From assembly GCF_006538725.1 (NCBI RefSeq), contig NZ_BJLQ01000004.1:1-64000 (forward strand): 64,000 bases of DNA, written 5' to 3'. The notes below the pieces were generated by a model that searched no databases, was not told the DNA's origin, and saw nothing but the letters and a program-made list of their open reading frames with translations. Position 1 is the stretch's first letter. The number at the start of each line of letters is the position of its first letter. Positions 16,976-34,402 of the stretch are shown here, piece by piece. Position numbers and translations under genes: made by a program. This DNA is from Cellulomonas gelida (GTDB taxonomy: Bacteria; Actinomycetota; Actinomycetes; Actinomycetales; Cellulomonadaceae).

Positions 16976-16995
16976 ACGTCGAAGCGCTTCGACGT
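16976..16995. promoter_or_regulatory. LacI-type operator (perfect 20-bp palindrome)
   Basis: ACGTCGAAGCGCTTCGACGT is perfectly self-complementary and lies 70 bases before the GH42 start in the GH42/lacI divergent region. It is the best example of the 14-base core TCGAAGCGCTTCGA that recurs across the locus. Position and symmetry match a LacI-family operator, with the adjacent LacI gene as the obvious candidate binder. Confidence 0.75.
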
Positions 16996-17160: not shown

Positions 17161-18171
17161 ATGGCTACGATCGCCGACGTCGCGAAGCTCGCCGGCGTCT
17201 CGTCGTCCACGGTGAGCTACGTCCTGTCGGGCAAGCGACCCATCTCCGGGCCCACCCGCACGCGGGTCGAGCGCGCGATCCGGGAGCTGGGCTTCAGCCC
17301 CCACGCCGGAGCGCGCGCGCTGGCCACCAACCAGACCAACGTGCTCGGCCTCGTCGTGCCGCTGCGCGCGCTCGAGACGAACTCCGCGACCGTCATGGAG
17401 ATCGTCGCGGGCGTGCTCGCGGCCGCGCGCGAGCACGGGGACGACGTGCTCGTCCTCACCGACGAGGACGTCGCCGACGTGCACCGACTGGCCGCCGGGT
17501 CGCGCGTCGACGCGCTCATCCTCATGGACATCGAGCGCCACGACCCGAGGCTCCCCGTGCTCGCGGCGCTGCGCCAGCCGTCGATCCTCATCGGCGTCCC
17601 GAGCGACACGCAGGGGCTGTCCTGCGTCGACCTCGACTTCACCGCCGCGGGCCGGCTCGCCGTGCGGCACCTCACCGAGCACGGCCACACGCGCATCGCG
17701 CTGCTGGGCGCAGGCGAGGCGGCAGTGGCGCGCAGCGCCAACTACGCCGTGCGCATCATCGACGGCTTCCGCGAGGAGGCGGGCCGGCTCGGCGTGCACC
17801 ACACCGTCGTGCCGCTCGAGGAGTCCTACCCGCAGGCCGCCGCGGCCGTCGCCCGCGCGCGTGCCGAGGTCGACGGCCTGACCGCGCTCGTCGTGCACAA
17901 CGAGGGCGCGCTGCCCGGCGTGCTCGACGCGCTCGCGCGTGACGGGCTGCGCATCCCGCAGGACGTCTCGGTGCTCGCGGTCAGCCCCACCCGGCTCGCC
18001 GCGCACCTGCCCGTCCCGCTGTCCGTGATCGACGTGCCCGCGGTCGAGATCGGCCGGACCGCGGTCGCGATGGCGGTCGACCGGCAGCAGCGCCCGATGG
18101 CGGTGGAGACCCGGCTGCTGGCCCCGCGCCTGCTCGAGCACGGGAGCTGCACCGCACCCCCGGCGCGCTGA
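17161..18171 (+). CDS. LacI-family transcriptional regulator
   Basis: A 336-residue protein with an N-terminal helix-turn-helix (ATIADVAKLAGVSSSTVSYV), the hinge region (about 45-60) and a periplasmic-binding-protein-like effector domain to the C terminus. It most likely represses the glycan locus in the absence of an oligosaccharide or sugar. The gene is divergent from GH42-GH31 and convergent with the GH95 operon. A perfect palindrome at 16976 and partial copies in its own promoter are the probable targets. The effector cannot be read from the sequence. Confidence 0.93.
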   Translation: MATIADVAKLAGVSSSTVSYVLSGKRPISGPTRTRVERAIRELGFSPHAGARALATNQTNVLGLVVPLRALETNSATVMEIVAGVLAAAREHGDDVLVLTDEDVADVHRLAAGSRVDALILMDIERHDPRLPVLAALRQPSILIGVPSDTQGLSCVDLDFTAAGRLAVRHLTEHGHTRIALLGAGEAAVARSANYAVRIIDGFREEAGRLGVHHTVVPLEESYPQAAAAVARARAEVDGLTALVVHNEGALPGVLDALARDGLRIPQDVSVLAVSPTRLAAHLPVPLSVIDVPAVEIGRTAVAMAVDRQQRPMAVETRLLAPRLLEHGSCTAPPAR

Positions 18172-18181
18172 GCAGCACACG

Positions 18182-20674
18182 TCAGCCCGCACGGTCCACC
18201 TGCCTGTCCACCAGCCGGTCCCCCAGCCGCAGCGGTCGCCCCGCGCGCAGCACGACGCGGCGCACGAGGCTCCCGTACCGGACGACGCGCACCTCGTCGC
18301 GCCCCGGGTGAAGCGTCGCCTCGACGAGCCGCCCGCGCGCCCACTGCACATCCACGACCAGCGCCCCGCGCGCCCGCAGCCCGACGACGGCGCCGTCCGG
18401 CCACGACGGCGGCAGCGCCGGCAGGAGGCGCAGCGACGAGCGTGTCGAGGCGACGAGCGCCTCGGCGACCGCGGCGACGAGACCGAGGTTGCCGTCGATC
18501 TGGAACGGCGGGTGCGTCGAGAACAGGTTCGGCAGCAGTCCCCCACCCTCACCCGACGGGAGGTCCTGGCGCGCCAGCCGCAGCGCGTCGCCGAGGACCT
18601 CGTCCACCGCACGACCGTCGCCGAGGCGCGCGCGCAACGCGGCCTTCCAGGCCATCGACCAGCCGGTCGACCCGGGGCCGCGCGCGTCCAGGCTCGCGCG
18701 CGCCGCCTCGGCGAGGTCACGTCCGGTGCCGGGTGCGGCCGGGCCGGACGAGGGGCGCTCCTGCGGCGCTGCGGCGTCCGCGAGGAGCTCGCCGAGCGGG
18801 TACAGCCCGACGAGGTGGGAGAGGTGACGGTGGTGCGGGTCGCGGGCGGGGGCGTCGTCGGGCCACTCGCGCAGCAGCCCGTCGGGGCCGACCGACGCCC
18901 GCGGGAGGCGCCCGAGAGCGTGCCGCCACCGTGGCGCGAGAGGCTCGTCGAGCGCCAGCACGTCGGCCGCCTCGACGCAGGCGCGCAGCAGGTCGCGCAC
19001 GAGGGCGACGTCCGCCGCGGACCCTGCGCACAGCGCGACCAGCCGACCGTCGACGACCCTCTCGTTCTCGGGCGACGACGACGGGCTCGGCACGAGGCCG
19101 CCTGCTCCGTCCGGGACCAGCCAGTCGAGGGCGAACGCCCCGGCGCCCCGCAGCAGAGGCCACACGTCGCGCAGCACGTCCGGGTCGAGCGTGAACGTGT
19201 ACCGGTCCCACAGGTGACGGCACAGCCACACGCCGCCCATCCACCACGCCGCCCACGCCGGGTCACCCTGGCCCCGGCCCACGGGCAGCGCCCAGCCCCA
19301 CACGTCGCTGTTGTGGTGCGCGACCCACCCGTCGCACCCGTACAGCTCACGTGCGACGGGCTCGCCCTCACGGGCCAGCACCCGGACGAGGTCGACCAGC
19401 GGCTCGACGCAGGAGCCGAGGCCCGTGACCTCCGCGGGCCAGTACGCCATCTCCAGGTTGACGTTGAGCGTGTACCCGCTCGACCACGCGGGCCGGTGCT
19501 CGTCGTTCCAGATCCCCTGGAGGTTCACGGGCGGTGCGCCCGGACGGGACGCGGCCATGAGCAGGTAGCGCCCGTACGCGAACGCAGCCTGGGTGCGCGC
19601 GGCGAGCGGGGCCTCGGCGCCCGGGGTGAGCGCGTCGGGCAGCAGCAGGTCGAGCGGCGGTGCGATCTCGAGCCGGGTGGCGTCCGCGAGCGCGCGGTGG
19701 TCCGCGACGTGCGCCGCGCGAGCGGCCTCGCCCTCGGCGGGCGACGAGGGCAGCGCGGCGTCCGCGCGGGCCGTCGCATCGGCGAACGCCTCGGCCGGCT
19801 CGCGCAGCGGCCCGGCGTCCGGCCAGCGTGACGTCGTCGCCGTGGCCAGCACGAGCTCGACCCAGGTCGCGCCGTCGACCCGCACGTGCGCTCCGACAGC
19901 CGTAGCGCGGCCGTCAGTCGCGACCCGGAGCGTGGCCGCGCCGACGAGCGAGGCGTGCGGGCCGTGGTCGGTGCGCGCGGGCAGGTCCGGCTCGTGAGCG
20001 GGGGGGACGTCGTACGGGAGCTCGACGCTCACGCACGCGCCCAGCACGCCCTCCGGTGTCGCGGCGACCTCGCCGGGGTGGGCGCCCGCGAGCAGGACGC
20101 CCCAGCCGAACGCACCGCCGTCGGCGCGCCACCGGCCGTGCAGGCAGCCGTCGGGCGCGCTCGCGAACCACTCGACCTCGACGCCCCGACCGCCGCCCTC
20201 GACGACCTCGCCCACCACCCCGTCGCGCAGGTCGAGCCGGCGTCCGGCCGAACGCGGCCGCCGCTCCTGCTCGTCGGCCCGCTCGTCGACTTGCTCGTCG
20301 ACCCGGACCGATGGCCGGGAGGTCTCGTGTGGACCCGTGAGGCGCAGGTCGACCACGAGGTCGACGAACGGCTGGAACGCCTGCGCGTACGGCCCCTGGA
20401 ACTCCCGCGCGAGAGCCGCCGCCTCGTCGTGCCGGCCGTGCGCGACCGCGTCCCGCAGCCGTGCGAGCGTCCCCGGCCCGGCGCCGCGCTCGAGCACGCG
20501 GGCCAGCGCCTCGCGCGGGCCGGCGGGGTGACCCGACCACGCGGTCGCGTCGTTGACCTGCACGCGCGCGCCGCTGACACCGCCGAACACCATCGCCCCG
20601 AGCCGCCCGTTGCCAACCGGGAACGCCTCGACCCACGCACGCGCAGGTTCCGCGAACCGCAGCACGTCCCCCAC
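18182..20674 (-). CDS. GH95 alpha-L-fucosidase
   Basis: An 830-residue protein with the full GH95 pattern: an N-terminal beta domain beginning FAEPARAWVEAFPVGNGRLGA, then an (alpha/alpha)6 barrel with NLQGIWN, YTLNVNLEMAYWPAE, HHNSDVWG and PSSSPEN, and QIDGNLG near the C-terminal domain. GH95 enzymes are inverting 1,2-alpha-L-fucosidases, some being alpha-L-galactosidases; fucosylated xyloglucan side chains are a known substrate. An Arg/Glu/Asp-rich insertion at about 120-150 looks lineage specific. There is no signal peptide. GTG 20674 lies 13 bases after the permease stop, with GAGGG upstream, so it is the last gene of the ABC operon. Confidence 0.9.
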   Translation of the reverse strand: MGDVLRFAEPARAWVEAFPVGNGRLGAMVFGGVSGARVQVNDATAWSGHPAGPREALARVLERGAGPGTLARLRDAVAHGRHDEAAALAREFQGPYAQAFQPFVDLVVDLRLTGPHETSRPSVRVDEQVDERADEQERRPRSAGRRLDLRDGVVGEVVEGGGRGVEVEWFASAPDGCLHGRWRADGGAFGWGVLLAGAHPGEVAATPEGVLGACVSVELPYDVPPAHEPDLPARTDHGPHASLVGAATLRVATDGRATAVGAHVRVDGATWVELVLATATTSRWPDAGPLREPAEAFADATARADAALPSSPAEGEAARAAHVADHRALADATRLEIAPPLDLLLPDALTPGAEAPLAARTQAAFAYGRYLLMAASRPGAPPVNLQGIWNDEHRPAWSSGYTLNVNLEMAYWPAEVTGLGSCVEPLVDLVRVLAREGEPVARELYGCDGWVAHHNSDVWGWALPVGRGQGDPAWAAWWMGGVWLCRHLWDRYTFTLDPDVLRDVWPLLRGAGAFALDWLVPDGAGGLVPSPSSSPENERVVDGRLVALCAGSAADVALVRDLLRACVEAADVLALDEPLAPRWRHALGRLPRASVGPDGLLREWPDDAPARDPHHRHLSHLVGLYPLGELLADAAAPQERPSSGPAAPGTGRDLAEAARASLDARGPGSTGWSMAWKAALRARLGDGRAVDEVLGDALRLARQDLPSGEGGGLLPNLFSTHPPFQIDGNLGLVAAVAEALVASTRSSLRLLPALPPSWPDGAVVGLRARGALVVDVQWARGRLVEATLHPGRDEVRVVRYGSLVRRVVLRAGRPLRLGDRLVDRQVDRAG

Positions 20675-20687
20675 CGCGTGCGCGCCC

Positions 20688-21683
20688 TCAGCCCTTGACG
20701 GCGCCGAAGATGACGCCCTTGGTGAAGTGGCGCTGGACGAACGGGTAGACGAGCAGGATCGGGATGATCGCGAGGATCATCACGGCCATCTTCACCGGCA
20801 TCCCCGTGACCGCACCCGAGCCGACGTCGACCTGCCCCGTGCCGGAGCCGGGCAGGGTCACGCCCTGCAGGACGTACGAGCGCAGGACGAGCTGCAGCGG
20901 CCACTTGGTGTTGTCGTTGATGTACAGCATCGCGTTGAAGAACGCGTTCCAGTACCCCACGCCGTAGAACAGCGCGACGACCGCGACCACGGCCTTGGAC
21001 ATCGGCAGGACGATCCGCCCGAGGATCCGCCACTCCCCCGCACCGTCCACGCGCGCGGCGTCGAGGATCGCGTTGTCGATCCCCATGAAGAAGTTGCGCA
21101 GGATCAGCACGTTGAACGCCGAGACGGCCCCCGGCAGGATCAGCGCCCAGTACGTGTCGATCAGGTCCAGCGAGCTGACCAGCAGGTACGTGGGGATCAT
21201 CCCCGCGCCGAAGAACATGGTGATGAGGAAGACGAACAGCAGCGGGCGGTGCCCGAACGAGCCAGGCCGCGACAGCCCGTAGGCCGCGAGCACCGACACG
21301 ACCACCGAGATGACCGTGCCGACGCCCGTCACGCCCACGCTCACGAGCGCGGCGCGCGTCACGACGCCGCCCGACAGGATCTGCTTGTAGGCGTTGAGCG
21401 TGAGGTCACCCGGCACGACGACGAGCCCGCCGGCCTGGATCGACTCCTGCGTCGTCGAGAAGCTCGTCACCACGACCGTCCACAGCGGGAAGAGCACCGC
21501 CAGGACCACGACGCTCAGGATGACGGCCTTCGTCATCTGGCCGATCCCCGAGGGCTCCTCCTCCCACACCGGTCGGTGCTTGTGGCGTCGCGGGCGGCGC
21601 GGCGCCCGGCCACGCGCGTCGTCGACGAGGTCACGTGGGAGCACCGCCGCCTCGGCGTCGATCTCCGGATTCTGTCCGCTCAT
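20688..21683 (-). CDS. Carbohydrate ABC transporter permease (MalG/LplC type)
   Basis: A 331-residue protein with about 50 cytoplasmic N-terminal residues, then six membrane helices. The EAA loop DAARVDGAGEWRILGRIVLP couples to the ATPase. The C-terminal HFTKGVIFGAVKG is typical of the LplC/YtcP branch of complex-oligosaccharide permeases. It pairs with the permease encoded just upstream (ATGA overlap) and the binding protein at 22774. No ATPase gene lies in the operon, so a shared MsiK-type ATPase elsewhere is likely. Confidence 0.92.
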   Translation of the reverse strand: MSGQNPEIDAEAAVLPRDLVDDARGRAPRRPRRHKHRPVWEEEPSGIGQMTKAVILSVVVLAVLFPLWTVVVTSFSTTQESIQAGGLVVVPGDLTLNAYKQILSGGVVTRAALVSVGVTGVGTVISVVVSVLAAYGLSRPGSFGHRPLLFVFLITMFFGAGMIPTYLLVSSLDLIDTYWALILPGAVSAFNVLILRNFFMGIDNAILDAARVDGAGEWRILGRIVLPMSKAVVAVVALFYGVGYWNAFFNAMLYINDNTKWPLQLVLRSYVLQGVTLPGSGTGQVDVGSGAVTGMPVKMAVMILAIIPILLVYPFVQRHFTKGVIFGAVKG

Positions 21684-22777
21684 GCGCGTCGGTACACCCC
21701 CGCCTCACCGAACACGTGCGCGAGCTTGTTCGCCCCGAGGACGAGCGCCAGGCTCACGACGCCCTTGACCAGGCCCGCGGCGGCCGCGAAGCTCCAGTCG
21801 CCGTAGATGACACCCTGGTAGTAGACGTACGTGTCGATCACCTCGGACACGTCCGACCCCACGGCGTCGCGCTGCAGGATCAGCTGCTCGAACCCGACCG
21901 TCAGCGCGTCGCCGAGGCGCAGGATCAGCAGCAGGACGATCACGGGCCGCAGCGCGGGCAGGGTCACGTGCCACATCCGGCGCCACCGGTTCGCGCCGTC
22001 CACGACCGATGCCTCGTACAGCTCGGGCGAGACGGTCGTCAGTGCGGCGAGGAAGATGATGATCCCCCAGCCTGCGTCCTTCCAGATCGCCTGCGACGTG
22101 ATGAGGACCAGGAACGTGTCCGGGTTCGTCATGAACGACACCGTGTGGTCGGCGCCGTGGGTGTGCAGCGTCTGGTTGATCAGCCCGGCACCGCCGAAGA
22201 TCTGCTGGAAGATCGTCACGACGAGCACCCACGAGAAGAAGTGGGGGAGGTAGACGATCGCCTGGATCGCCGTGCGCACGCGCGGTGACAGCACGCTGTT
22301 GAGCAGCAGCGCCAGGAAGATCGGCACCGGGAAGTAGAAGACGAGCTGGAACAGCGTGATCGTCAGCGTGTTCTCGACCGCGTGCAGGAACGCCGGGTTG
22401 GTGAAGACGCGCTCGAAGTTCGCCCAGCCGACGAACGGGCTGTTCAGGAAGCCCCGGTACGGCGAGTAGTCCTGCCACGCGATGACGTTGCCCAGCATCG
22501 GGACGTAGGCGAAGACGACGAGCACGGCGATCGCCGGCACCGTCATGACCAGCAGCGAGCGGTCGCGCCGGAGCTTGGTCCGCCACGACAGCCGGCGGGT
22601 CGGGACCCGCGCGCCCGACCGTCGCGGGCCGGGACGGCGCGAGCTCGTCGCCGGCCGCGTACCCGGCTCGAGCGCAGGGCGCGACGGGACCGCCCGGGAC
22701 GCGCCCGTCGAGGGTGTGCCCGGGGGCACCGCCGCGGAGTCGGCGGCGGTGCCCCGGGTGACTCGTGCGCCCGTCAC
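21680..22777 (-). CDS. Carbohydrate ABC transporter permease (MalF/LplB type)
   Basis: A 365-residue protein: a Pro/Arg-rich cytoplasmic leader of about 65 residues, then six membrane helices with the EAA loop EASVVDGANRWRRMWHVTLP. GTG 22777 is used because it overlaps the binding-protein stop as GTGA; the frame remains open further upstream but would run inside the binding-protein gene. With 20688-21683 it forms the membrane channel of the oligosaccharide importer. Confidence 0.88.
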   Translation of the reverse strand: MTGARVTRGTAADSAAVPPGTPSTGASRAVPSRPALEPGTRPATSSRRPGPRRSGARVPTRRLSWRTKLRRDRSLLVMTVPAIAVLVVFAYVPMLGNVIAWQDYSPYRGFLNSPFVGWANFERVFTNPAFLHAVENTLTITLFQLVFYFPVPIFLALLLNSVLSPRVRTAIQAIVYLPHFFSWVLVVTIFQQIFGGAGLINQTLHTHGADHTVSFMTNPDTFLVLITSQAIWKDAGWGIIIFLAALTTVSPELYEASVVDGANRWRRMWHVTLPALRPVIVLLLILRLGDALTVGFEQLILQRDAVGSDVSEVIDTYVYYQGVIYGDWSFAAAAGLVKGVVSLALVLGANKLAHVFGEAGVYRRA

Positions 22778-24441
22778 TGCGCGTCCAGGATCTCCTGGTA
22801 GAACGCGCGCAGCTCCTCGCCCCCCGCGGACTTCCAGGTCGCGATCGCCGCGTCGAGGTCGTCGAGCGTCTTGCGTCCGCGCGAGATGTCCTTCTCCAGG
22901 TCGACGAACGGCTGGCCGATCGACGCGTACTGGGGCGGCTCGACGATCTGCATCGCGAAGAACAACGGCTCGGTCACGTACTGCGCCGCGTCCGCCATCC
23001 AGGTGCTCGACGCCTCGACGAAGCCCGGGTACTGGACCCGCGTGTTCGCGATGGGCGGGTCGACGAGGAACATGTACGTCGGCTGCAGCTCGGTCGCGGC
23101 GAGAGCGGTGGGAACCGGGACGCCGTCGTCGCCCTTCGTGTAGTGCACGCCCTCGACACCGTTGTTGATCACGTCGAACTCGGTGGTCCCGAAAGGTGCG
23201 GCCAGGACGTTCGCGAGCTGCAGGAGCTCGCGGATCCTCGCCTCGTCGTCGGACCGCTTGAGGAACGAGAAGATGTTCGCCGGGTTGCCCTGGAACAGCA
23301 CGGGTGTGCCGCCGTCGGCCGCGATCGGCGCGAACGGCTGCTGCCAGTACGCGGGGTTCGCGGCCAGGTTGTCGCGCAGCGCCTCGTGCCAGCCGCCCAG
23401 GCCGTCGTTCGAGATGAGCGTCTGCCCGCCCTGGAAACGGGTCTTGGCCTCGCCGGTGTTGCCGGCGACCGCGTCCGGGTGCACCGCACCGGAGGCGAAC
23501 AGTCGCGCGTTCCAGTCGAGCGCCGCACGGTACTCCTCGGTCTCGCACCGGGCGACGAGCTTGTCGCCCTCGAGCTTCCACTTCGGCGGGACGGCGTGCA
23601 TCTGCACCGACGTGACCCACAGGTCCTCGGCGCCGTAGACGTTCCCGCCCGTGAGCTCCTTGGCGAGGGCGAGCAGGTCGTCGGCCGTCCGCACATCGGC
23701 CTCGACGCCCTTGGCGTCCAGCAGGTCCTTCCGGTAGAAGGTCGCGTCCGTGATGATCTCGCCGGGAAACGGCAGGCCGTAGAGGCGGCCGTTGAACACG
23801 CAGAACTTCCACGCGGCCGTCGGGATGTTGGCCAGGTTCGGGTAGTCCTTGACCTTGTCGCCGGCCAGGAAGTCGGTCAGGTCCTGGAACAGGTTCGGCA
23901 CGATCTCCGAGCCGAACCGCGACGGGATGTTCCAGGTCGGCACGCAGACCCAGTCGGGCACGTCCTTCGCGGACGCGAGCACGGTCGCGAGCTTGTCACC
24001 GTACGTGTTGCCGTCGGAGATCTGGAAGCTGATCGTCGAGCCGAGGACCGCGTTGACGGCCTCGTAGTACTGGTTGCCGTCGACGGGCGGGATCGTGCCC
24101 CACAGCGGCGTCATCGCCGTGAAGGTCGCACCCGAGCCGGGCGGCGTCGTCACGGACTGCACGAACGATGCGGGGATCGTCGCGAAGCCCGGCGTCGAGC
24201 CCTTGACGCTCGGGAAGTCGGGCTTGACGTACTCGACCGGGTAGTACGCCGGCAGGATGTCGGTCGAGACGCTGGCCTGTGCGGTGGGACCGGCCGCGCC
24301 GCCTCCGCCCCCGGAGCTGCACGCGGACAGCAACGACGGCACACCGATCACGGCCGCACCAACGGCGATCATCCCGAGGAACCCGCGCCGGCCGACCTCG
24401 ACGTCAGCGATCCGGCCGGTTCGGGGGGTGGAGCTGTTCAT
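22774..24441 (-). CDS. Tat-type lipoprotein, extracellular oligosaccharide-binding protein
   Basis: A 555-residue solute-binding protein, first gene of the importer operon. Its leader carries a twin-arginine-like VGRRGFLG followed by a hydrophobic core and the lipobox LLSAC, so it looks like a Tat-exported lipoprotein. The length and C-terminal FYQEILDAQ match the large LplA/YtcQ-type binding proteins for complex oligosaccharides. ATG 24441 has GAGGAC at good spacing. An operator-like site lies about 115 bases upstream. In context it should capture xyloglucan fragments; the ligand is inferred. Confidence 0.88.
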   Translation of the reverse strand: MNSSTPRTGRIADVEVGRRGFLGMIAVGAAVIGVPSLLSACSSGGGGGAAGPTAQASVSTDILPAYYPVEYVKPDFPSVKGSTPGFATIPASFVQSVTTPPGSGATFTAMTPLWGTIPPVDGNQYYEAVNAVLGSTISFQISDGNTYGDKLATVLASAKDVPDWVCVPTWNIPSRFGSEIVPNLFQDLTDFLAGDKVKDYPNLANIPTAAWKFCVFNGRLYGLPFPGEIITDATFYRKDLLDAKGVEADVRTADDLLALAKELTGGNVYGAEDLWVTSVQMHAVPPKWKLEGDKLVARCETEEYRAALDWNARLFASGAVHPDAVAGNTGEAKTRFQGGQTLISNDGLGGWHEALRDNLAANPAYWQQPFAPIAADGGTPVLFQGNPANIFSFLKRSDDEARIRELLQLANVLAAPFGTTEFDVINNGVEGVHYTKGDDGVPVPTALAATELQPTYMFLVDPPIANTRVQYPGFVEASSTWMADAAQYVTEPLFFAMQIVEPPQYASIGQPFVDLEKDISRGRKTLDDLDAAIATWKSAGGEELRAFYQEILDAQ

Positions 24442-24554: not shown

Positions 24555-24570
24555 GTCGAAGCGGTTCGAC
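24555..24570. promoter_or_regulatory. Operator-like site before the binding-protein operon
   Basis: GTCGAAGCGGTTCGAC has perfect six-base arms and differs from full symmetry only at the centre. The core TCGAAGCGGTTCGA matches the locus-wide class in 13 of 14 positions. It sits four bases downstream of a possible -10 for the ABC operon. Confidence 0.65.
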
Positions 24571-24746: not shown

Positions 24747-24760
24747 TCGAATCGGTTCAA
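24747..24760. promoter_or_regulatory. Operator-like site before GH3
   Basis: TCGAATCGGTTCAA fits the same inverted-repeat class and lies 41 bases before the chosen GH3 start, which supports the downstream GTG start. Confidence 0.55.
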
Positions 24761-24800: not shown

Positions 24801-27731
24801 GTGACCGACGACGCGACGCCGCCGGACGCGCCCGACGCCACGCGGCCGCACCACGGCGCCAGCCACCTCGAACCCGTCCTCGGCGCGCACGAGCTCGCGT
24901 CGGACCTCGTCGCGCGCCTGACCACCGACGAGAAGATCGCGATGTTGCACCAGCGCGGACCCGCGGTCGAACGGCTCGGGCTGCGCGCGTTCACCACCGG
25001 CGCCGAGGTGCTGCACGGAGTGTCCTGGCTGGGCACCGCGACGGTGTTCCCGCAGCCCGTCGGGCTCGCCGCGACCTGGGACCCGGACCTGCTCACGCGC
25101 GTCGGAGCCGCGGTCGGGGTCGAGCTGCGGGCCAAGCACGCCGCGGACCCGTCGGTGTCGCTCAACGTGTGGGCACCCGTCGTCAACCCGCTGCGGCACC
25201 CAGCCTGGGGGCGCAACGAGGAGGGCTTCAGCGAGGACCCGTACCTCACCGCGCTGCTCGCGACCGCCTACGCCCGCGGGCTGCGCGGCGACCACCCGGT
25301 GTACTGGCGCACCGTGCCCACGCTCAAGCACGCGTTCGGCTACAACAACGAGACCGACCGCGCCGTGACGAGCTCCCAGCTGCGTCCGCGCGTGCTGCAC
25401 GAGTACGAGCTGCCCGCCTTCACCGGGCCCCTCGCTGCCGGGGTCGCAGGCGCGGTCATGGCCGCCTACAACCTCGTCGACGGCCGCCCCAACCACCTGC
25501 ACGGCGAGCTCCTCGACCTCCTGCGGGAGGCCGCACCCGGGTCGCTGCTCGTCGTCTCCGACGCCGCCGCACCCGGGTTCGTCGTCGACCTCCAGCGCTT
25601 CTACGACGACCACGTCGAGTCGCACGCCGCGATGCTGCGCGCGGGCGTCGACTCGTTCACCGACAACGACGCGGACGCGGGACCGACGATCGCGCACCTC
25701 ACCGAGGCGCTACGGCGCGGGCTGCTCGACGAGCCCGTCATCGACCGCGCGGTCGTGCGCCAGCTCGAGCTGCGGATCCTCACCGGCGAGCTCCACCCCG
25801 AGCTCGACCCCTTCGTCGTCGGAGCCGGCCAGATCGACCTGCCCGAGCACCGGGCGCTCGCACGCGAGGCCGTGGCGCGGTCCGTCGTCGTGCTCGAGAA
25901 CACCGGCGCGCTCCCTCTGTCCTCGCGGGCGCGTGTCGCGGTCGTCGGACCGCTCGCCGACCGCGCGCTGCACGACTGGTACTCCGGGACGCCGCCGTAC
26001 ACCGTCGGGCTCGGCACCGCGCTGCGCGAGCGGGTGGGCACCGACCAGGTCCGGGTCGCCGACTCCTCGGACCGGCTCGTGCTGCGCGCGACGAGCACGG
26101 GCCGCGCGGTGCGCGCGGTCGGGCCCGACCACGTGCTCACCGCCGACGCCGACGCGCGCGACGACCACGCGCAGCACGACGCGACGCTCTGGGAGGGCGG
26201 GCTGTGGACGCTGTCCGTCGCCGCGACCGGGCTGCTCTGGACCGGCGCACGCTGGGTCGCGCGGGCCGATGCGAGCCGTGTGGGCGGCTGGGTCGCGCAG
26301 GAGACGTTCCGACGCCACGTGCACGACGACGGGACGTGGTCGCTGCAGCACGCGGGCTCGGGCAGCTGGCTGCGCGTGCAGCACGACGAGGCGGGCACGC
26401 TCGTCGCCGACGGTCAGACGCTCGACGACGCCGAACGGTTCGCTGCCGAGACGATCCGCTCGGGTGCCGCGGCCGTGCGCGACGCGTGCGCCGACGCCGA
26501 CGTGGTCGTCGTGGCGCTCGGCAACGACCCACACCTGGGTGGACGCGAGACCCAGGACCGCCGTTCCCTGACCCTGCCCACCGCGATGCTCGACCTGTGG
26601 CGCGTCGCCGCTGACGCCGCGCCGGCCGCGCGCCGCGTCCTGCTCGTCGTCTCGTCGTACCCGTACGTCCTGCCCGACGACCTCGGGGCGGACGCCGTCG
26701 TGTGGAGCTCGCACGGCGGTCAGGAGCTCGGGCACGGGATCGCGGACGTGCTGCTGGGCGACGAGGAGCCGCACGGACGGCTCACGCAGGCCTGGCCCGC
26801 GCGGGTCGAGCACGTCGGCGACCTCTTCGACTACGACATCATCGCCGCGGGTCACACCACGTGGTACGCGGCCCACCCACCCCGGTACGCGCTCGGGCAC
26901 GGGCTCACGTACGGCGACGTGCGGTACGTCGCCGTACGTGACGCGGACGTCGCCGGCGCGGGAACGGGGTCCGACGAGGCCACGGTCGTGCAGGCCGACG
27001 ACGAGCAGGTCGGCCTCGTGGTGACCGTGCGCAACGACGGAGCGCGTCCCGCGCACGAGCTCGTGCAGGTGTACGCCGACGCGCCCACGCACCGGCTGCC
27101 CTACGGGCACCGGCTCGTCGCGCACGCACGGGTCGAGCTCGCCGGGGGCGAGCAGCGTGACGTCGCGCTGCGCGTGCCGGTCGCGCGCCTCGCGACGTGG
27201 GACGTCACGCGCGCGCGGTTCGTCGTCGAGCCGGGCCGGTTCGATCTCGGCATCGGCCCGTCCGCGGCGAACCTCCCGCTGCACGTCGCGGTCGAGGTGC
27301 ACGGCGAGCCCGTACCGCCGCGCACGCTCGTCGGACGCGCCGTGCGCCTCGCGGACGGCGACGACCTCGCGGACGTCGAGCTCACGGCGCACACGCGCGA
27401 GCGCGGGACCGCCGTGCAGGTCGCGCGAGGACGCACCCGCGGGTCCGTGGTCCTGCGGACGTGCGACGTCGCCGGAGCGGCCGGGCTGCGAGCCGTCGTC
27501 GCCCGGACGCGCCCCGGACCCGCGCGGCTCTCGCTCGCGGTCCGCGACGCGGGTGCGGACACGTGGCGCACGCTCGTCGACCTCGACGTCCCCGAGGGCG
27601 GCGACCGGTGGACGTGGCGCACGCTCGACGCGCCGTTCACCTCGCCGCCCGACAACGACGGACCGCCGGTCGACGTACGGGTCACGCTCGTCGGCGCCGC
27701 ACGCGCCGCGTCCGTCGAGCTGACCGTCTGA
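24801..27731 (+). CDS. GH3 glycosidase with an inserted domain and C-terminal beta domain
   Basis: A 976-residue GH3-like enzyme. The N-terminal barrel has WAPVVNPLRHPAWGRNEEGF, KHAFGYNN and the predicted nucleophile Asp in VVSDAAAPGF (usually SDW). The (alpha/beta)6 sandwich contains ARVAVVGPLAD and WPARVEHVGDLFDYD. About 120 residues inserted in the sandwich (near 440-560) have a beta-trefoil-like, Trp-rich look. An Fn3-like domain and a CBM6-like domain end the protein. It is probably a cytoplasmic beta-glucosidase or beta-xylosidase. GTG 24801 was chosen for its GACGAGGAG ribosome-binding site and because the operator at 24747 precedes it. No signal peptide is present. Confidence 0.85.
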   Translation: MTDDATPPDAPDATRPHHGASHLEPVLGAHELASDLVARLTTDEKIAMLHQRGPAVERLGLRAFTTGAEVLHGVSWLGTATVFPQPVGLAATWDPDLLTRVGAAVGVELRAKHAADPSVSLNVWAPVVNPLRHPAWGRNEEGFSEDPYLTALLATAYARGLRGDHPVYWRTVPTLKHAFGYNNETDRAVTSSQLRPRVLHEYELPAFTGPLAAGVAGAVMAAYNLVDGRPNHLHGELLDLLREAAPGSLLVVSDAAAPGFVVDLQRFYDDHVESHAAMLRAGVDSFTDNDADAGPTIAHLTEALRRGLLDEPVIDRAVVRQLELRILTGELHPELDPFVVGAGQIDLPEHRALAREAVARSVVVLENTGALPLSSRARVAVVGPLADRALHDWYSGTPPYTVGLGTALRERVGTDQVRVADSSDRLVLRATSTGRAVRAVGPDHVLTADADARDDHAQHDATLWEGGLWTLSVAATGLLWTGARWVARADASRVGGWVAQETFRRHVHDDGTWSLQHAGSGSWLRVQHDEAGTLVADGQTLDDAERFAAETIRSGAAAVRDACADADVVVVALGNDPHLGGRETQDRRSLTLPTAMLDLWRVAADAAPAARRVLLVVSSYPYVLPDDLGADAVVWSSHGGQELGHGIADVLLGDEEPHGRLTQAWPARVEHVGDLFDYDIIAAGHTTWYAAHPPRYALGHGLTYGDVRYVAVRDADVAGAGTGSDEATVVQADDEQVGLVVTVRNDGARPAHELVQVYADAPTHRLPYGHRLVAHARVELAGGEQRDVALRVPVARLATWDVTRARFVVEPGRFDLGIGPSAANLPLHVAVEVHGEPVPPRTLVGRAVRLADGDDLADVELTAHTRERGTAVQVARGRTRGSVVLRTCDVAGAAGLRAVVARTRPGPARLSLAVRDAGADTWRTLVDLDVPEGGDRWTWRTLDAPFTSPPDNDGPPVDVRVTLVGAARAASVELTV

Positions 27732-27738
27732 GCGCGAC

Positions 27739-27760
27739 GCCCCTCGGCCCGCTCAGGGGC
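27739..27760. terminator. Short bidirectional hairpin between GH3 and the VOC gene
   Basis: GCCCCT (27739-27744) pairs with AGGGGC (27755-27760), overlapping the VOC stop codon in the 21-base gap between two converging genes. It could serve both transcripts but is short and lacks a U-tract. Confidence 0.35.
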
Positions 27761-28133
27761 CCGTCACGTGCCAGCGATGCCCGTACGGGTCGACGAGCCA
27801 GCCGCTCCGCGTGCCGTCGGGCACGTCCTGCGGCGGACGGTCCTGCGTCGCGCCCGCCGCGACCGCCCGCGCGTACGCCTCGTCCACGTCCGGCACGGAC
27901 AGGACGACCGCGCTGGTCGACCGGCCGCCGAGCGACTTCGGGGCGTACGCGCCGTACTCGTGGTACTCGTCGGACAGGTACACCGACGCCCCGTCGAAGT
28001 CGAGCGCGACAAACCCGATCCGGCCGTCCTCCTCGTCGTAGCGTTCACCCGCGGTCGCCCCGAACGCCGCCGCGTAGAACACGATCGCCCCAGCGGCGTC
28101 GTCGACGGTCAGGTAGGGCACGGTCCGTCCCAT
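27753..28133 (-). CDS. VOC/glyoxalase-like small protein
   Basis: A 126-residue protein with the beta-alpha-beta-beta-beta repeat of the vicinal-oxygen-chelate fold: VPYLTVDDAAGAIVFYAAAF at the start and DPYGHRWHVTGP at the end, as in PhnB-like members. The metal ligands and substrate cannot be settled. ATG 28133 (MGRTVPYL) is preferred over an upstream start at 28184, which would overlap an operator-like site. Confidence 0.85.
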   Translation of the reverse strand: MGRTVPYLTVDDAAGAIVFYAAAFGATAGERYDEEDGRIGFVALDFDGASVYLSDEYHEYGAYAPKSLGGRSTSAVVLSVPDVDEAYARAVAAGATQDRPPQDVPDGTRSGWLVDPYGHRWHVTGP

Positions 28134-28183: not shown

Positions 28184-28197
28184 TCGAGGCGTTTCAA
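28184..28197. promoter_or_regulatory. Operator-like site before the VOC gene
   Basis: TCGAGGCGTTTCAA belongs to the same class as the glycan-locus operators, with one change in the left arm. It overlaps a perfect TTCAATTGAA palindrome (28193-28202) and lies about 50 bases upstream of the VOC start on the minus strand. Confidence 0.4.
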
Positions 28198-28247: not shown

Positions 28248-28298
28248 TTGACGGAAACGTCCGGTGTGGGCGACGATCGGGCGTTGAAGCGCTTCGAC
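28248..28298 (+). promoter_or_regulatory. tatA promoter with operator-like palindrome
   Basis: TTGACG (28248-28253) is a good -35; GACGAT (28272-28277) is a weak -10 at 18 bases. GTTGAAGCGCTTCGAC (28283-28298) follows at once: a 16-base palindrome with a single mismatched pair and the same core as the lacI/GH42 operator. It ends 29 bases before the tatA start. Confidence 0.55.
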
Positions 28299-28326
28299 GA
28301 CGAAGCCACGAACGGAGACCCCCACC

Positions 28327-28593
28327 GTGCTGCGAAACCTGTCCGCCTGGCACGTCATCATCCTCGTCGCCGTCCTGGTGCTGCTGTTCGGCGCCAACAG
28401 GCTGCCCGAGCTCGCGCGCGGCGTCGGTCAGTCGCTGCGCATCTTCAAGAGCGAGGTCAAGGACCTCGCGAGCGACGACGACGGCGCCCCGCGCGGCGCC
28501 ACGGCCTTCGCCGCCGCTCCTGCTCCGGCCCCCGTGACGCAGATCGGCGCGCAGCCGAGTCCGCACGACCCGGACCACCGCCCCGCGGCCTGA
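28327..28593 (+). CDS. tatA: Twin-arginine translocase subunit TatA
   Basis: An 88-residue protein with one N-terminal membrane helix (HVIILVAVLVLLFGANRLPE), the conserved FG and LPE hinge, an amphipathic helix to about residue 48 and a Pro/Ala-rich tail. TatA oligomers form the passage for folded proteins with RR signal peptides. It is solitary here; tatC is not in the window. The GTG start at 28327 follows CGGAGACC. An operator of the glycan-locus class lies directly upstream, and the nearby binding protein has a Tat-type leader. Confidence 0.9.
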   Translation: MLRNLSAWHVIILVAVLVLLFGANRLPELARGVGQSLRIFKSEVKDLASDDDGAPRGATAFAAAPAPAPVTQIGAQPSPHDPDHRPAA

Positions 28594-28632: not shown

Positions 28633-29892
28633 TCAGTCCACCAGGACGCCTGCGCGCAGCACGCGCCGCGCCCGCAGGTGCTCGTCCGCCACGACGACGT
28701 CCGCGCGCAGCCCGACCGCGAGCGCGCCCACGTCGGCCAGCCCGAGCACCGTCGCCGGCGTCGTCGAGGCGGCCCGCACCGCGTCGACCAGCGGGACTCC
28801 CGCCGCCACGGTGGAGCGCACGACGTCGAGCAGGTGCGCGACGCCACCCGCGATCGCACCGCTTCGTCCGTCCGGTCCCACGATCCGCGCGACGCCGTCG
28901 GCGACGCGGACCGCCATCGGCCCGAGCTGGTAGTCGCCGTCCGCCATCCCCGCAGCAGACATCGCATCCGTCACGAGGGCGATGCCGGCGGCCCCCACGA
29001 GGTCGAACACCGAGACCACGGTGGCGGGCGCGAGGTGCGTCCCGTCCGCGACGAGCTCGACCACCAGCTCGCCGCGCGACGCCGCCGCGAGGCACGCCAT
29101 GACGGGCCCCGGGTCGCGGTGGTGCACCGGGCGCATGCCGTTGAACAGGTGCGTCGCGGTCGGCCGGGTCCCCCGCGCGCTCGTGGCGCCGGCCAGCAGG
29201 TCGAACGCCCGGTCGACGGCCGCCTCGACCTGCTCGGCGCTCGCGTCCGTGTGGCCGATCGACGGCAGCGCGCCGGCGCGCACGAGCGCCGCGATCACGT
29301 CGGCGTCGGCCTCGCCGTCCGCGTCGGCAGACGTCTCGGCCGCGGTCACGCCCGCGACTTCAGGTGCGATCGTCATGGTGACGAGGTACCCGCGCGCGGC
29401 CTCGGCGATCTGCCGGACGAGCCCCGGGTCACCGGCCAGCATGTCGTCGGGGTTCTGCGCGCCGCACCGCGCGTGCGACAGGAACGGACCCTCAAGGTGG
29501 ATGCCCGCGAGCACGCCCTCCTCGGCGGCCTCGGCCAGGAGTGCCGTGCGAGTGAGCAGCTCGTCGGCGGGGGCAGTCACGAGCGAGGCGACGAGCGAGG
29601 TCGTCCCGTGGCGCAGGTGCTCGTCGGCGGCGCGCCGGACCTCCTGCGCGGTCGTCGCGTCCGGGAAGCTCGCGCCGCCGCCGCCGTGGCAGTGCAGGTC
29701 GACCAGGCCCGGCAGCACGGTGTCGTCCGAGGTCTCCGGCAGGCGCTCGTTCCACGGCGCCGGGGCCTCGCCGGCAGGACCGATCCACGCGATCGTCGCA
29801 CCCCGGGTCACGAGGAGGCCGTCCTCGAGGACGTCGGTCGGCGTGACGACCCGGCCACGCAGCAGGATCTCGGACTCGGGCTGGTCGCTCAC
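28633..29892 (-). CDS. nagA: N-acetylglucosamine-6-phosphate deacetylase
   Basis: A 419-residue amidohydrolase of usual NagA length. It shows the metal motif DLHCHGGGG, the Glu of HLEGPFL, metal or substrate histidines in GHTDAS and THLFNGM, and the catalytic Asp in VTDAMSAAG. It deacetylates GlcNAc-6-phosphate in amino-sugar and chitin catabolism or cell-wall recycling. GTG 29892 is chosen, with GGGAAG upstream; an in-frame GTG at 29910 is possible. No nagB or transporter neighbours it, so it is a single-gene unit convergent with tatA. Confidence 0.92.
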   Translation of the reverse strand: MSDQPESEILLRGRVVTPTDVLEDGLLVTRGATIAWIGPAGEAPAPWNERLPETSDDTVLPGLVDLHCHGGGGASFPDATTAQEVRRAADEHLRHGTTSLVASLVTAPADELLTRTALLAEAAEEGVLAGIHLEGPFLSHARCGAQNPDDMLAGDPGLVRQIAEAARGYLVTMTIAPEVAGVTAAETSADADGEADADVIAALVRAGALPSIGHTDASAEQVEAAVDRAFDLLAGATSARGTRPTATHLFNGMRPVHHRDPGPVMACLAAASRGELVVELVADGTHLAPATVVSVFDLVGAAGIALVTDAMSAAGMADGDYQLGPMAVRVADGVARIVGPDGRSGAIAGGVAHLLDVVRSTVAAGVPLVDAVRAASTTPATVLGLADVGALAVGLRADVVVADEHLRARRVLRAGVLVD

Positions 29893-29997
29893 GCCGCCAT
29901 TCTTCCCCACCCGCGCACGTCCGCCCGGGACGCCTGGCCCGTCAGCCGGACGTTCTCGCGCCGACCGCGTGGCGACCTGCTCGCGGCTGTCGCGCCA

Positions 29998-30438
29998 TCA
30001 GACCTCGAGGGTCGCCGGATGCCGCGCCCGGCGGACGTCGCGGCGCCGGACCGACCGGTCCGCCCAGAGGCACGCCCCCGCCGCCGAGACCGCGCCGACC
30101 ACGACGATCCCCAGACCGAGAGCCGAGAGCGACCACCGCTGCAGCACGACCACGGTCGAGAGGAACGCCACGAGGGCACCCAGCAGCCCGTACACCGCGG
30201 CCCGCCGCTCGGCAGCGGCCCGGGCGAGCCGGTGCTCGACGAGCATCGACAGCGTCCCGCCCACCACGAGCACCGGCACAGCGCCGAGGACCACGGCGTA
30301 CGACACGACCACGAGCCCGAGCGCGCCGTTCCCCGCGGCCAGCGAGACCGCGGCACCGATCAGCCAGAACAGCACCAGGGCGCGCCACACGATCGCGGCA
30401 GCGCGGCGGACGTCGACCTCGGGGGCGCTGCTCGTCAT
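29998..30438 (-). CDS. Small four-helix membrane protein, unknown function
   Basis: A 146-residue protein with four predicted membrane helices and a basic C-terminal tail (RSVRRRDVRRARHP). The start is uncertain among in-frame ATGs at 30450, 30447 and 30438; 30438 (MTSSAPEV) is given. No family is recognised. It lies between nagA and nucS on the same strand with gaps of about 100 and 75 bases. Confidence 0.65.
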   Translation of the reverse strand: MTSSAPEVDVRRAAAIVWRALVLFWLIGAAVSLAAGNGALGLVVVSYAVVLGAVPVLVVGGTLSMLVEHRLARAAAERRAAVYGLLGALVAFLSTVVVLQRWSLSALGLGIVVVGAVSAAGACLWADRSVRRRDVRRARHPATLEV

Positions 30439-30512
30439 ACGCCCCATCATCGCGCCCGGCCCCCGGCGCCGGAAGTGCGCGTGACCGCGACCCGTCCTGT
30501 CCGACCAGGGGC

Positions 30513-31208
30513 TCAGAACAGGCGGGAGTCGACGTCGTCGACGCCGCGCATCGCCTCGTAGTCGAGCGTGAGGCACGCGATCCCGCGGTCGGCGGCGAGG
30601 ACCCGCGCCTGCGGCTTGATCTCCTGGGCGGCGAACACGCCGCGCACCGGGCTGAGCAGCGGGTCGCGGTTCAGCAGCTCGAGGTAGCGCGTGAGCTGCT
30701 CGACGCCGTCGATGTCGCCCCGGCGCTTGATCTCGATCGCGACCGACCCGCCGGTGGGGTCCTTGGCCAGGATGTCGACCGGCCCGATGGCCGTCGGGTA
30801 CTCGCGCCGGACGAGCACGTGACCGTCGCCCAGCAGCCCGATCTGCGCCGCGAGCAACTCCTGCAGGTGCGCCTCGACGCCGTCCTTGACCAGCCCGGGG
30901 TCCACGCCGAGCTCGTGCGCGCTGTCGTGCAGCACGTCGTAGAGCTCGATCTCGAGCCGGTCGTCCGACTTCTGGTGCTGCACCGTCCACACCTGCGTGA
31001 CGCCGGCCGCCCGCGACTCGTCGTCGGGCTCGACGACCGCGAGCGAGCACGGCGGGCTCATCCAGTTCAGCGGCTTGTACGAGCCGCCGTCGGAGTGCAG
31101 CAGCACGCTGCCGTCGGCCTTGACGACGAGCAGTCGCGTCGCGCGCGGCAGGTGCGCCGAGAGACGCCCGGTGTAGCGGGCGGCGCAGGACGCGACGACG
31201 AGACGCAC
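30513..31208 (-). CDS. nucS: Mismatch-specific endonuclease NucS (EndoMS)
   Basis: A 231-residue protein of typical NucS length with an N-terminal dimerisation/DNA-binding domain and a C-terminal RecB-like nuclease domain. The catalytic residues lie in GPVDILAKD and AIEIKRRG (D...E-x-K). The extreme C terminus DSRLF resembles the beta-clamp-binding tail of actinobacterial NucS. In Actinobacteria lacking MutS/MutL this enzyme performs non-canonical mismatch repair by cutting both strands at mismatches. GTG 31208 follows GGAGGATC. Its place after atpC and DUF2550 follows the usual actinobacterial order. Confidence 0.95.
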
Positions 31209-31245
31209 GCGGGATCCTCCGTCAGGTCAGGGGTCGGAGCGGCGG

Positions 31246-31662
31246 TCAGATGACCGAGCCGACGCGCGACGGCGTCGCCTCGATCCAGGAGGTGAGCCCG
31301 GCGTACGCCTCGGGCGACAGCCGCAGCTCGAACTCCACGGGCTTGCCGTTCGACCGGGCGTGGCACGTCACGACGAGCTGGCCCGCGCCCGGTCCCTCGG
31401 CGGCACGCCGGGAGACGATCGTGAGCGACTGGCGCTCCCAGCGCCGCGCCGGACGCGGGGCCAGGGACGACGAACGCCACCAGTAGAGCGAGGCCGCACC
31501 GTACTGGGCGACCCCGCTCGGCCAGCGCGCACCGTGGCGCAGCCCGCACCGGAACGACCCGACGCGCCGGTCGAGCGTGTGCCGGCGCGACAGCCACAGC
31601 CCGAAGCTGCCGATCACGAGCACGACGACCGTCAGAACCGCGACGACGATCTCCCCGGGCAC
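31246..31662 (-). CDS. DUF2550 family membrane protein
   Basis: A 138-residue protein with one N-terminal membrane helix (VVAVLTVVVLVIGSFGLWL) and a soluble domain with FRCGLR and a C-terminal SWIEA segment, the form of the DUF2550 family found beside atpC across Actinobacteria. Its function is unknown. GTG 31662 is 13 bases past the atpC stop, so it is probably part of the atp transcript. Confidence 0.85.
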   Translation of the reverse strand: MPGEIVVAVLTVVVLVIGSFGLWLSRRHTLDRRVGSFRCGLRHGARWPSGVAQYGAASLYWWRSSSLAPRPARRWERQSLTIVSRRAAEGPGAGQLVVTCHARSNGKPVEFELRLSPEAYAGLTSWIEATPSRVGSVI

Positions 31663-31675
31663 GTGACCTGGCGCC

Positions 31676-31953
31676 TCAGTGGCCCGTGGACGTCGGGTCG
31701 CTCAGCGCGTCGACGACGACCGTGACCGTGTCGGAGTCCACCGACAGGAACCCGCCGTCCACGTGCCAGGCGAGCTGCTCGCCGTCGGTCGTGCGCACGC
31801 GCAGCTCGCCCGCGCGCAGCACCGACAGGATCGGCGTGTGCCCGGCGAGGATCCCGATCTCCCCGTCGGCCGCGGGGGCGGAGACCTGGCGGGCCTTGCC
31901 CGACCAGACCTTGCCCACCGCGTCGACGAGGTCGACCTCGAGAGAGGACGCCA

Positions 31954-31954
<1 letters not shown>
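31676..31954 (-). CDS. atpC: F1Fo ATP synthase subunit epsilon
   Basis: A 92-residue protein, shorter than the about 138 residues of enteric epsilon because it ends after the N-terminal beta-sandwich, as is common in Actinobacteria. Marks are LEVDLVDAVGKVW and GEIGILAGHTPIL. It links gamma to the c-ring and can inhibit ATP hydrolysis. The start overlaps the atpD stop by one base (TGATG). Confidence 0.95.

Positions 31955-34402
<2,448 letters not shown>

Follow-up and report, generated by a model that had tools for sequence, protein, structure and literature searches.

Cellulomonas gelida carries a solitary tatA gene at the edge of a sugar-uptake locus, behind a palindrome that resembles the operators of that locus. 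Is this gene controlled together with the sugar importer, and if so, which exported protein would it serve? The analysis started from a 64,000-nucleotide stretch of the genome (the window) and was extended to the genus and the order.

The locus runs in the order GH42, lacI, GH95, two permeases, binding protein, GH3, glyoxalase-fold gene, tatA, and nagA-like gene. The GH42 enzyme (14855-16906, minus strand; PF02449, 466.6 bits) is followed by a LacI-family regulator (17161-18171, plus strand; PF00356, 60.6 bits; PF13377, 102.5 bits) and by a GH95 enzyme in which no leader was noticed (18182-20674, minus strand; PF22124, 424.7 bits). On the minus strand lie importer permease 2 (20688-21683), importer permease 1 (21680-22762, start picked by eye), both matching PF00528, and the ABC importer binding protein (22774-24441; PF13416), which has a Tat-type lipoprotein leader and is the probable cargo. 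The start of the GH3 enzyme (24801-27731, plus strand; PF00933, PF01915) was set downstream of an operator. The glyoxalase-fold gene (27753-28133, minus strand; PF00903) is divergent from tatA, and the nagA-like amidohydrolase (28633-29910, minus strand) is convergent with it; the latter exceeds the cut-off of PF01979 but not that of TIGR00221 (187.2 bits against 225.65).

The Window Harbors an Accessory tatA

The tatA gene (28327-28593, plus strand) encodes 88 amino acids from a GTG start, with GGAG at 28314-28317. In a profile search the product scored 63.2 bits against PF02416 (cut-off 21) and exceeded the NCBIfam cut-offs of NF001854 (80.8 bits; cut-off 72) and TIGR01411 (59.0 bits; cut-off 53.9); by these curated cut-offs it is a TatA subunit. 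The sequence-only reading had described the gene as solitary, and its neighbors are indeed the glyoxalase-fold gene and nagA. That reading had also raised the question of whether the genome has another tatA next to tatC. A profile search of the 91 contigs of the 3.79 Mb genome located one on contig C2, adjoining the only tatC detected. The window gene is therefore an accessory copy, situated apart from the housekeeping tat genes, and the case in which it is the only tatA of the genome, which would have spoken against the sequence-only reading, is ruled out. A TatB-like match on contig C4 was weak (19.4 bits, below the cut-off).

Predicted Operator and Promoter of tatA

A near-perfect palindrome with the core of the lacI/GH42 operator had been noticed ahead of tatA, and this was borne out. 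The palindrome, GTTGAAGCGCTTCGAC (28283-28298), matches in 7 of 8 palindromic pairs, ends 28 nt ahead of the GTG, and shares its core with a perfect 16-base palindrome between GH42 and lacI (16978-16993). Further palindrome matches, also taken as operators, are located upstream of the binding-protein gene (24555-24570) and of the GH3 gene (24747-24760). We predict that 28283-28298 is a LacI-type operator of tatA. With up to three mismatches allowed, the palindrome has 7 matches in the window (both strands, 4 places) against 0.85 expected, a number that no shuffle out of 100 attained. For the bare 10-base core with one mismatch the signal was weaker, its 5 matches being equaled by 3 of 100 shuffles. 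Three places in the whole genome carry TYGAAGCGCTTCRA, and its reversed-pattern control has none; six carry TYGAANCGNTTCRA, again with none for the control. Of these six, four are within the sugar locus, one is on contig C29, and one is on contig C67. The 16-base form with up to two mismatches showed no excess across the whole genome (16 places versus 15 in the control); loose matches are therefore noise.

A probable sigma-70 promoter (28248-28277, plus strand) consists of TTGACG at 28248-28253, an 18-nt spacer, and a weak -10 element, GACGAT, at 28272-28277. The palindrome had been placed right after the TTGACG box; the box is present, but the adjacency is loose, with 29 nt between the two. 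This gap has room for a -10 element, GACGAT being a poor match to TATAAT, and the operator should lie over the expected transcription start. No TTGAC was found within 70 nt of the other three window operators, and a promoter type common to all units is thus not supported.

On the glyoxalase side, about 100 nt upstream of the tatA operator, there is a degenerate second palindrome, TCGAGGCGTTTCAA (28184-28197). Its role may be to control the glyoxalase-fold gene or to act jointly with the tatA operator.

The locus has the makings of a LacI regulon: lacI lies within it and has an operator at its own promoter, and the common operator stands before the importer, the glycosidases, and distant secreted enzymes. 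There are 18 LacI-type matches in the C. gelida genome, so a regulator other than the local LacI could use the tatA site. Two of these 18 genes have TYGAANCGNTTCRA no farther away than about 210 nt, namely the local lacI and one on contig C67, where the core differs. The C67 site, TCGAATCGATTCGA (C67:2955-2968), adjoins this other LacI-type gene and is probably the operator of that neighbor; a like arrangement is seen in G099, G032, and G002.

Distribution of the Second tatA in Cellulomonas

We counted TatA matches of at least 39 bits in 81 Cellulomonas genomes. Two strong matches were present in six genomes and one in 71; four genomes had none, three of which are less than 90% complete. The six are the window strain (G000), Cellulomonas sp. 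JH27-2 (G002), C. uda NBRC 3747 (G099), G021, G025, and G032; the five closest of these carrier species are near kin and not independent. In all six, the second tatA is within the GH42-lacI-GH95-importer-GH3-nagA locus, between GH3 and nagA, and has an exact TYGAAGCGCTTCRA upstream. Between the 14-base operator and tatA lie 29 nt in G000, 27 in G025, 126 in G021, 28 in G032, 30 in G099, and 464 in G002. TTGACG is located 34-36 nt upstream of the operator in all six, the chance of TTGAC per 8-nt slice of the window being 0.2%. The promoter spacer is 18 nt in G000 and 17 nt in the other five; the -10-like hexamers (GACGAT in three species, GACCAT, CACGAT, and CATATT) are poor in five of the six, CATATT being better. 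Each of the six genomes contains TYGAANCGNTTCRA six to eight times, with four occurrences in the sugar locus and none for the control.

The binding-protein gene provided the comparison with loci that have no tatA. It was found in 41 of the 81 genomes: 30 at at least 70% identity, three at 57-58%, and eight as weak partial matches, which were dropped. Of the 33 loci compared, 27 are without tatA: both GH3 and nagA are visible in 20, four are cut by contig ends, and three are without a nagA match. The interval between GH3 and nagA contained an operator (up to one mismatch to TYGAAGCGCTTCRA) in none of the 20 tatA-less loci that show both genes. Phylogenetic footprinting, with operator and TTGACG present in six of six carriers and the operator absent from 20 of 20 comparable loci, supports the proposal of the sequence-only reading that tatA is under predicted control by the local LacI, and we regard the predicted wiring of tatA to the local sugar operator as well supported.

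Two other readings of the palindrome can be weighed here. Were it a chance match or a repeat without a role, the near-equality of two-mismatch matches between genome (16) and control (15) would be expected, but exact matches stand at 3 to 0 genome-wide, and a chance match should hardly be kept at the tat promoter in six of six species while missing from 20 of 20 comparable intervals; we consider this reading scarcely credible and rejected it on the exact-match counts. Alternatively, the operator could serve the divergent glyoxalase-fold gene, with tatA beside it by accident, and in five of the six species the site does lie between the two genes. In G021, however, no glyoxalase match was found, yet operator, TTGACG, and tatA are kept, so that the operator there has tatA alone to serve. 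The glyoxalase side also has a separate degenerate palindrome in five of the six species (at one mismatch, 80-110 nt before the tatA operator; G021 has none), and the operator itself keeps its place at the tat promoter in all six, always 34-36 nt downstream of TTGACG. Control of the glyoxalase-fold gene is thus very unlikely to be the role of the site and was rejected as the main reading, given G021 and the separate palindrome.

The second tatA looks intact. GGAG precedes its start in each of the six species, and the FG hinge is kept in each product (LLFG context, by eye). At the position of E. coli Phe39, read by eye, four of the six copies have Phe (G000, G021, G032, and G099) and two have Leu (G025 and G002); the amphipathic-helix context is RIFKSE in the former four, RILKSE in G025, and KILKSE in G002. 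The helix Leu makes the case for an intact second tatA slightly weaker in G025 and G002. Where E. coli has Gln8, the window TatA has His, as does its housekeeping partner. Over 51 codons of the six copies, a small sample, pN was lower than pS in 15 of 15 pairs, a pattern that fits purifying selection.

A Full tat Set in Cellulomonas sp. JH27-2 and the History of the Cassette

A TatB-like gene starts 31 nt past the operator in Cellulomonas sp. JH27-2, and tatA, tatC, and nagA come next (L076 3346-4931, minus strand). The TatB-like product is below the cut-offs of both models it matched (TIGR01410, 40.8 bits, cut-off 56.5; NF002377, 53 bits), and the TatC is above that of TIGR00945 (165.9 bits). 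Among 58 genomes searched, 36 of them from the genus, this is the only one with two TatC copies, one in the sugar locus and one adjoining its other tatA. Given this gene order, the operator there would control an apparent whole second translocase, which the tatB-like/tatA/tatC set presumably is. No convincing remains of tatB or tatC were found in the five tatA-only loci; the best match, 91 residues at 31% identity with an E-value of 0.004, is inside the window GH3 region and was taken as chance.

In the phylogeny of the binding protein, the six loci form one group (93/96; recovered in 95% of 200 bootstrap trees). The atpD phylogeny groups five of the six species (93/99) and places JH27-2 with G030 and G063 (100/99); likewise, the housekeeping TatC phylogeny places JH27-2 with G030 (100/100), apart from the other five. 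In the TatA phylogeny (51 columns, several partial rows), the six second copies do not form one group, the partial row of G001 falling inside. The sugar-locus TatC of JH27-2 is a long branch whose placement in the TatC phylogeny is ambiguous.

The simplest reading, and the one toward which we lean, is that importer cassettes have been exchanged at one place, with the tat genes riding along with one cassette type. An alternative to transfer into JH27-2 would be loss in G030 and G063.

Seven genomes (G030, G063, G005, G014, G020, G077, and G027) have, at the site next to ATP synthase and nagA, a LacI at 51-57% identity and the same operator type with a different importer. The seven sites gave no match to a tat gene; an eighth stretch, from G001, stopped at a contig end. 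This place (window 28633-33801; L334-L340) accordingly holds different LacI-plus-importer cassettes in different species, with a common operator type, and is possibly an exchange site for sugar cassettes.

Candidate Cargo and Extent of the Regulon

The sequence-only reading had ascribed to the binding protein a Tat-like leader, VGRRGFLG, and a lipobox; both are present, the lipobox as LLSAC. The Tat consensus has F-L after RR. Tat leaders were read by eye, and the Pfam TAT_signal model was not reported for the binding protein. A leader of the RR-x-F-L type with lipobox (GRRGFLG) occurs in the binding protein of all six tatA loci, and in each of these loci a product encoded near tatA thus has an apparent Tat signal. 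Similar leaders (RRRSFLG, HRRSFLG, DRRSFLG, and DRRRFLG) were found in 24 of 24 tatA-less loci, a count that covers loci with at least 70% binding-protein identity and leaves out the three at 57-58%. A binding protein can thus have a Tat leader where there is no second tatA: the Tat-type leader would be older than, or independent of, the second tatA, and in the tatA-less loci the housekeeping Tat system is evidently enough.

Outside the sugar locus, the six genomes contain nine strict operator sites; eight precede the genes described here, and one (G002 C2:588881) is without an assigned gene. Five of the six species have one such site each before a CBM2 protein with BNR/sortilin-type repeats; in the window strain this is the site on contig C29, before a secreted beta-propeller enzyme. 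Two strict sites precede GH5-CBM_X2-CBM46 enzymes (G025 and G002) and one a GH10-CBM2 enzyme (G032); in G099, a near site precedes a GH10-CBM2 enzyme. We take the CBM2 beta-propeller proteins to be GH74 xyloglucanases, a family to which no Pfam match assigned them. Along with the GH95, GH42, and GH3 enzymes of the locus, this assignment suggests xyloglucan as the substrate, and xyloglucan fragments are our best guess for the inducing sugar.

From the conserved wiring, the position of the gene, and the leaders, we think it fairly probable that the second TatA is retained as part of the LacI-controlled sugar-uptake regulon and is induced with its cargo. One competing account would make tatA a relic of a former tatB-tatA-tatC set of the cassette, its operator inherited and now of little effect. 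The full set is indeed found in JH27-2 only, with tatA alone kept in the other five, and second tat genes can act weakly: deletion of tatA2 in C. jejuni is reported to leave growth on nitrate unchanged (PMC4148689). A relic, however, would not be expected to keep tatA, GGAG, TTGACG, and operator in all five reduced loci, where no convincing remains of tatB or tatC were seen, or to show pN below pS in every pair; moreover, reduction is one direction only, and JH27-2 may have gained the extra genes. We judge the relic account improbable. A different possibility accepts the LacI operator of tatA and assigns the main cargo elsewhere, to another exported protein of the regulon or to a general Tat load during growth on plant polymer. 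The strict sites before the secreted beta-propeller protein (five of six species), the two GH5-CBM_X2-CBM46 enzymes, and the GH10-CBM2 enzyme are in keeping with this, as are an RR in the beta-propeller leaders and the Tat-type leader that the binding protein keeps in 24 of 24 loci without the second tatA. In the beta-propeller leaders, however, RR is followed by Ala-rich residues and not by the F-L of the consensus, and the binding protein has the one clear Tat leader seen in the locus. Cargo other than the binding protein therefore seems unlikely to us, if less so than a relic.

Proposed Mechanism and Known Cargo-Linked tat Genes

If the second TatA is induced with the binding protein, events might run as follows. 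As is typical of the LacI family, the local LacI would bind the operators when sugar is absent and repress all units, including tatA. An oligosaccharide, perhaps a fragment of xyloglucan, would release LacI and so switch on tatA and the importer units, and the induced cell would make much binding protein with a Tat lipoprotein leader. The extra TatA could then join housekeeping TatB and TatC, and export capacity would rise with the cargo, to fall back once the sugar is gone. In JH27-2, the same operator type would drive the whole tatB-like/tatA/tatC set. A TatABC ratio of 20-30 to 1 to 1, with TatA in excess, is quoted in PMC3305326. As TatA is the subunit in excess, capacity could plausibly be raised by supplying more of this subunit alone, the benefit proposed here for cargo export. 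More tentatively, and with somewhat less than even confidence, we suggest that one and the same sugar switches on both the importer and the Tat subunit by which export of its binding protein is limited (in one species, a complete private translocase), and that the tat genes travel with the importer cassette between species and so belong functionally to the importer.

Were this true, a sugar signal would govern Tat capacity, and the regulated quantity would be TatA dosage alone, without TatB or TatC, in a soil genus amenable to experiment. Cassettes without tat genes, with tatA only, and with the whole tatB-like/tatA/tatC set offer a natural comparison, and whether the TatA level limits export in vivo would be directly testable. 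A use that suggests itself is raising Tat export along with a chosen cargo.

Substrate-linked control of tatA had been called unusual. This holds, but cargo-linked tat genes are already known for a phosphatase and for respiratory enzymes (PMC3988878, PMC4148689), and three cases tie a tat gene to its cargo. In Bacillus subtilis, tatAd-tatCd is described as lying downstream of phoD and being expressed under phosphate limitation (PMC3988878, PMC3827258). As here, the extra tat genes adjoin a cargo gene and are expressed when the cargo is called for; there, however, phosphate controls a complete tatA-tatC pair and the cargo is a phosphodiesterase, whereas in Cellulomonas tatA is alone in five of six species, the predicted control is by a sugar-type repressor, and the probable cargo is a lipoprotein binding protein. 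The tatA2 of C. jejuni, within the nap operon and transcribed from the napA promoter, with the housekeeping tatA elsewhere (PMC4148689), is the closer parallel in being a solitary second tatA inside a Tat-cargo cluster. It differs in serving a respiratory enzyme from the promoter of the cargo; the Cellulomonas gene has a predicted promoter and operator of its own. C. jejuni TatA2 is also reported to be without Gln8 and Phe39, two residues essential in E. coli (PMC4148689), whereas Phe is kept in four of the six Cellulomonas copies and His occupies the Gln position in the window copy and in its housekeeping partner. According to the discussion of PMC4148689, P. stutzeri has a tatE in its nos cluster, which is again a solitary tatA/E paralog in a cargo cluster, in this case for denitrification and not sugar uptake.

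The layout of lacI, importer, and glycosidases with palindromic sites resembles the CelR-type regulons of actinobacteria, in which lacI adjoins an ABC importer and intracellular glycosidases and the sites precede the importer and secreted enzymes (PMC3377646). The CelR sites have another core (TGGGA.CG.TCCCA type), and the available part of that account mentions no tat gene (PMC3377646). We found no description of a sugar-controlled tatA, or of a tat gene linked to sugar uptake, in a literature search outside of which most subscription journals fall. Within the literature searched, the predicted sugar-type operator, an importer binding protein as the probable cargo, and the existence of tatA-only and apparent whole-set versions of one cassette appear to be new.

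tatA Genes Outside of the Genus

Relatives of the binding protein are encoded in 105 loci, and among the best 80 of these, a set that includes loci truncated at contig ends and may omit the genome of the window itself, TatA was present in two (L180 and L200), both among the six described above. Across the order, 30 of 396 genomes have at least two TatA matches (E-values up to 1e-9), 26 of them outside of the genus. Nine of these 26 were examined, with two copies each: TatC is nearby in 16 of the 18 copies, and the palindrome was found in none of the 18 TatA stretches.

In three of the nine genomes, the extra tatA adjoins a large secreted GSDH-domain protein (PF07995) with PKD and Ig-like domains; it is solitary in L300 (G382) and L307 (G244) and accompanied by tatC in L296 (G282). 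This is possibly another cargo-linked Tat gene. Extra tatA-tatC pairs also adjoin likely Tat cargo in L304 (G353), L306 (G446), and L302 (G303), where the neighbors are, respectively, a molybdopterin oxidoreductase for which Pfam reports a TAT signal and two proteins with an RR leader, the first pectate-lyase-like and the second ferritin-like.
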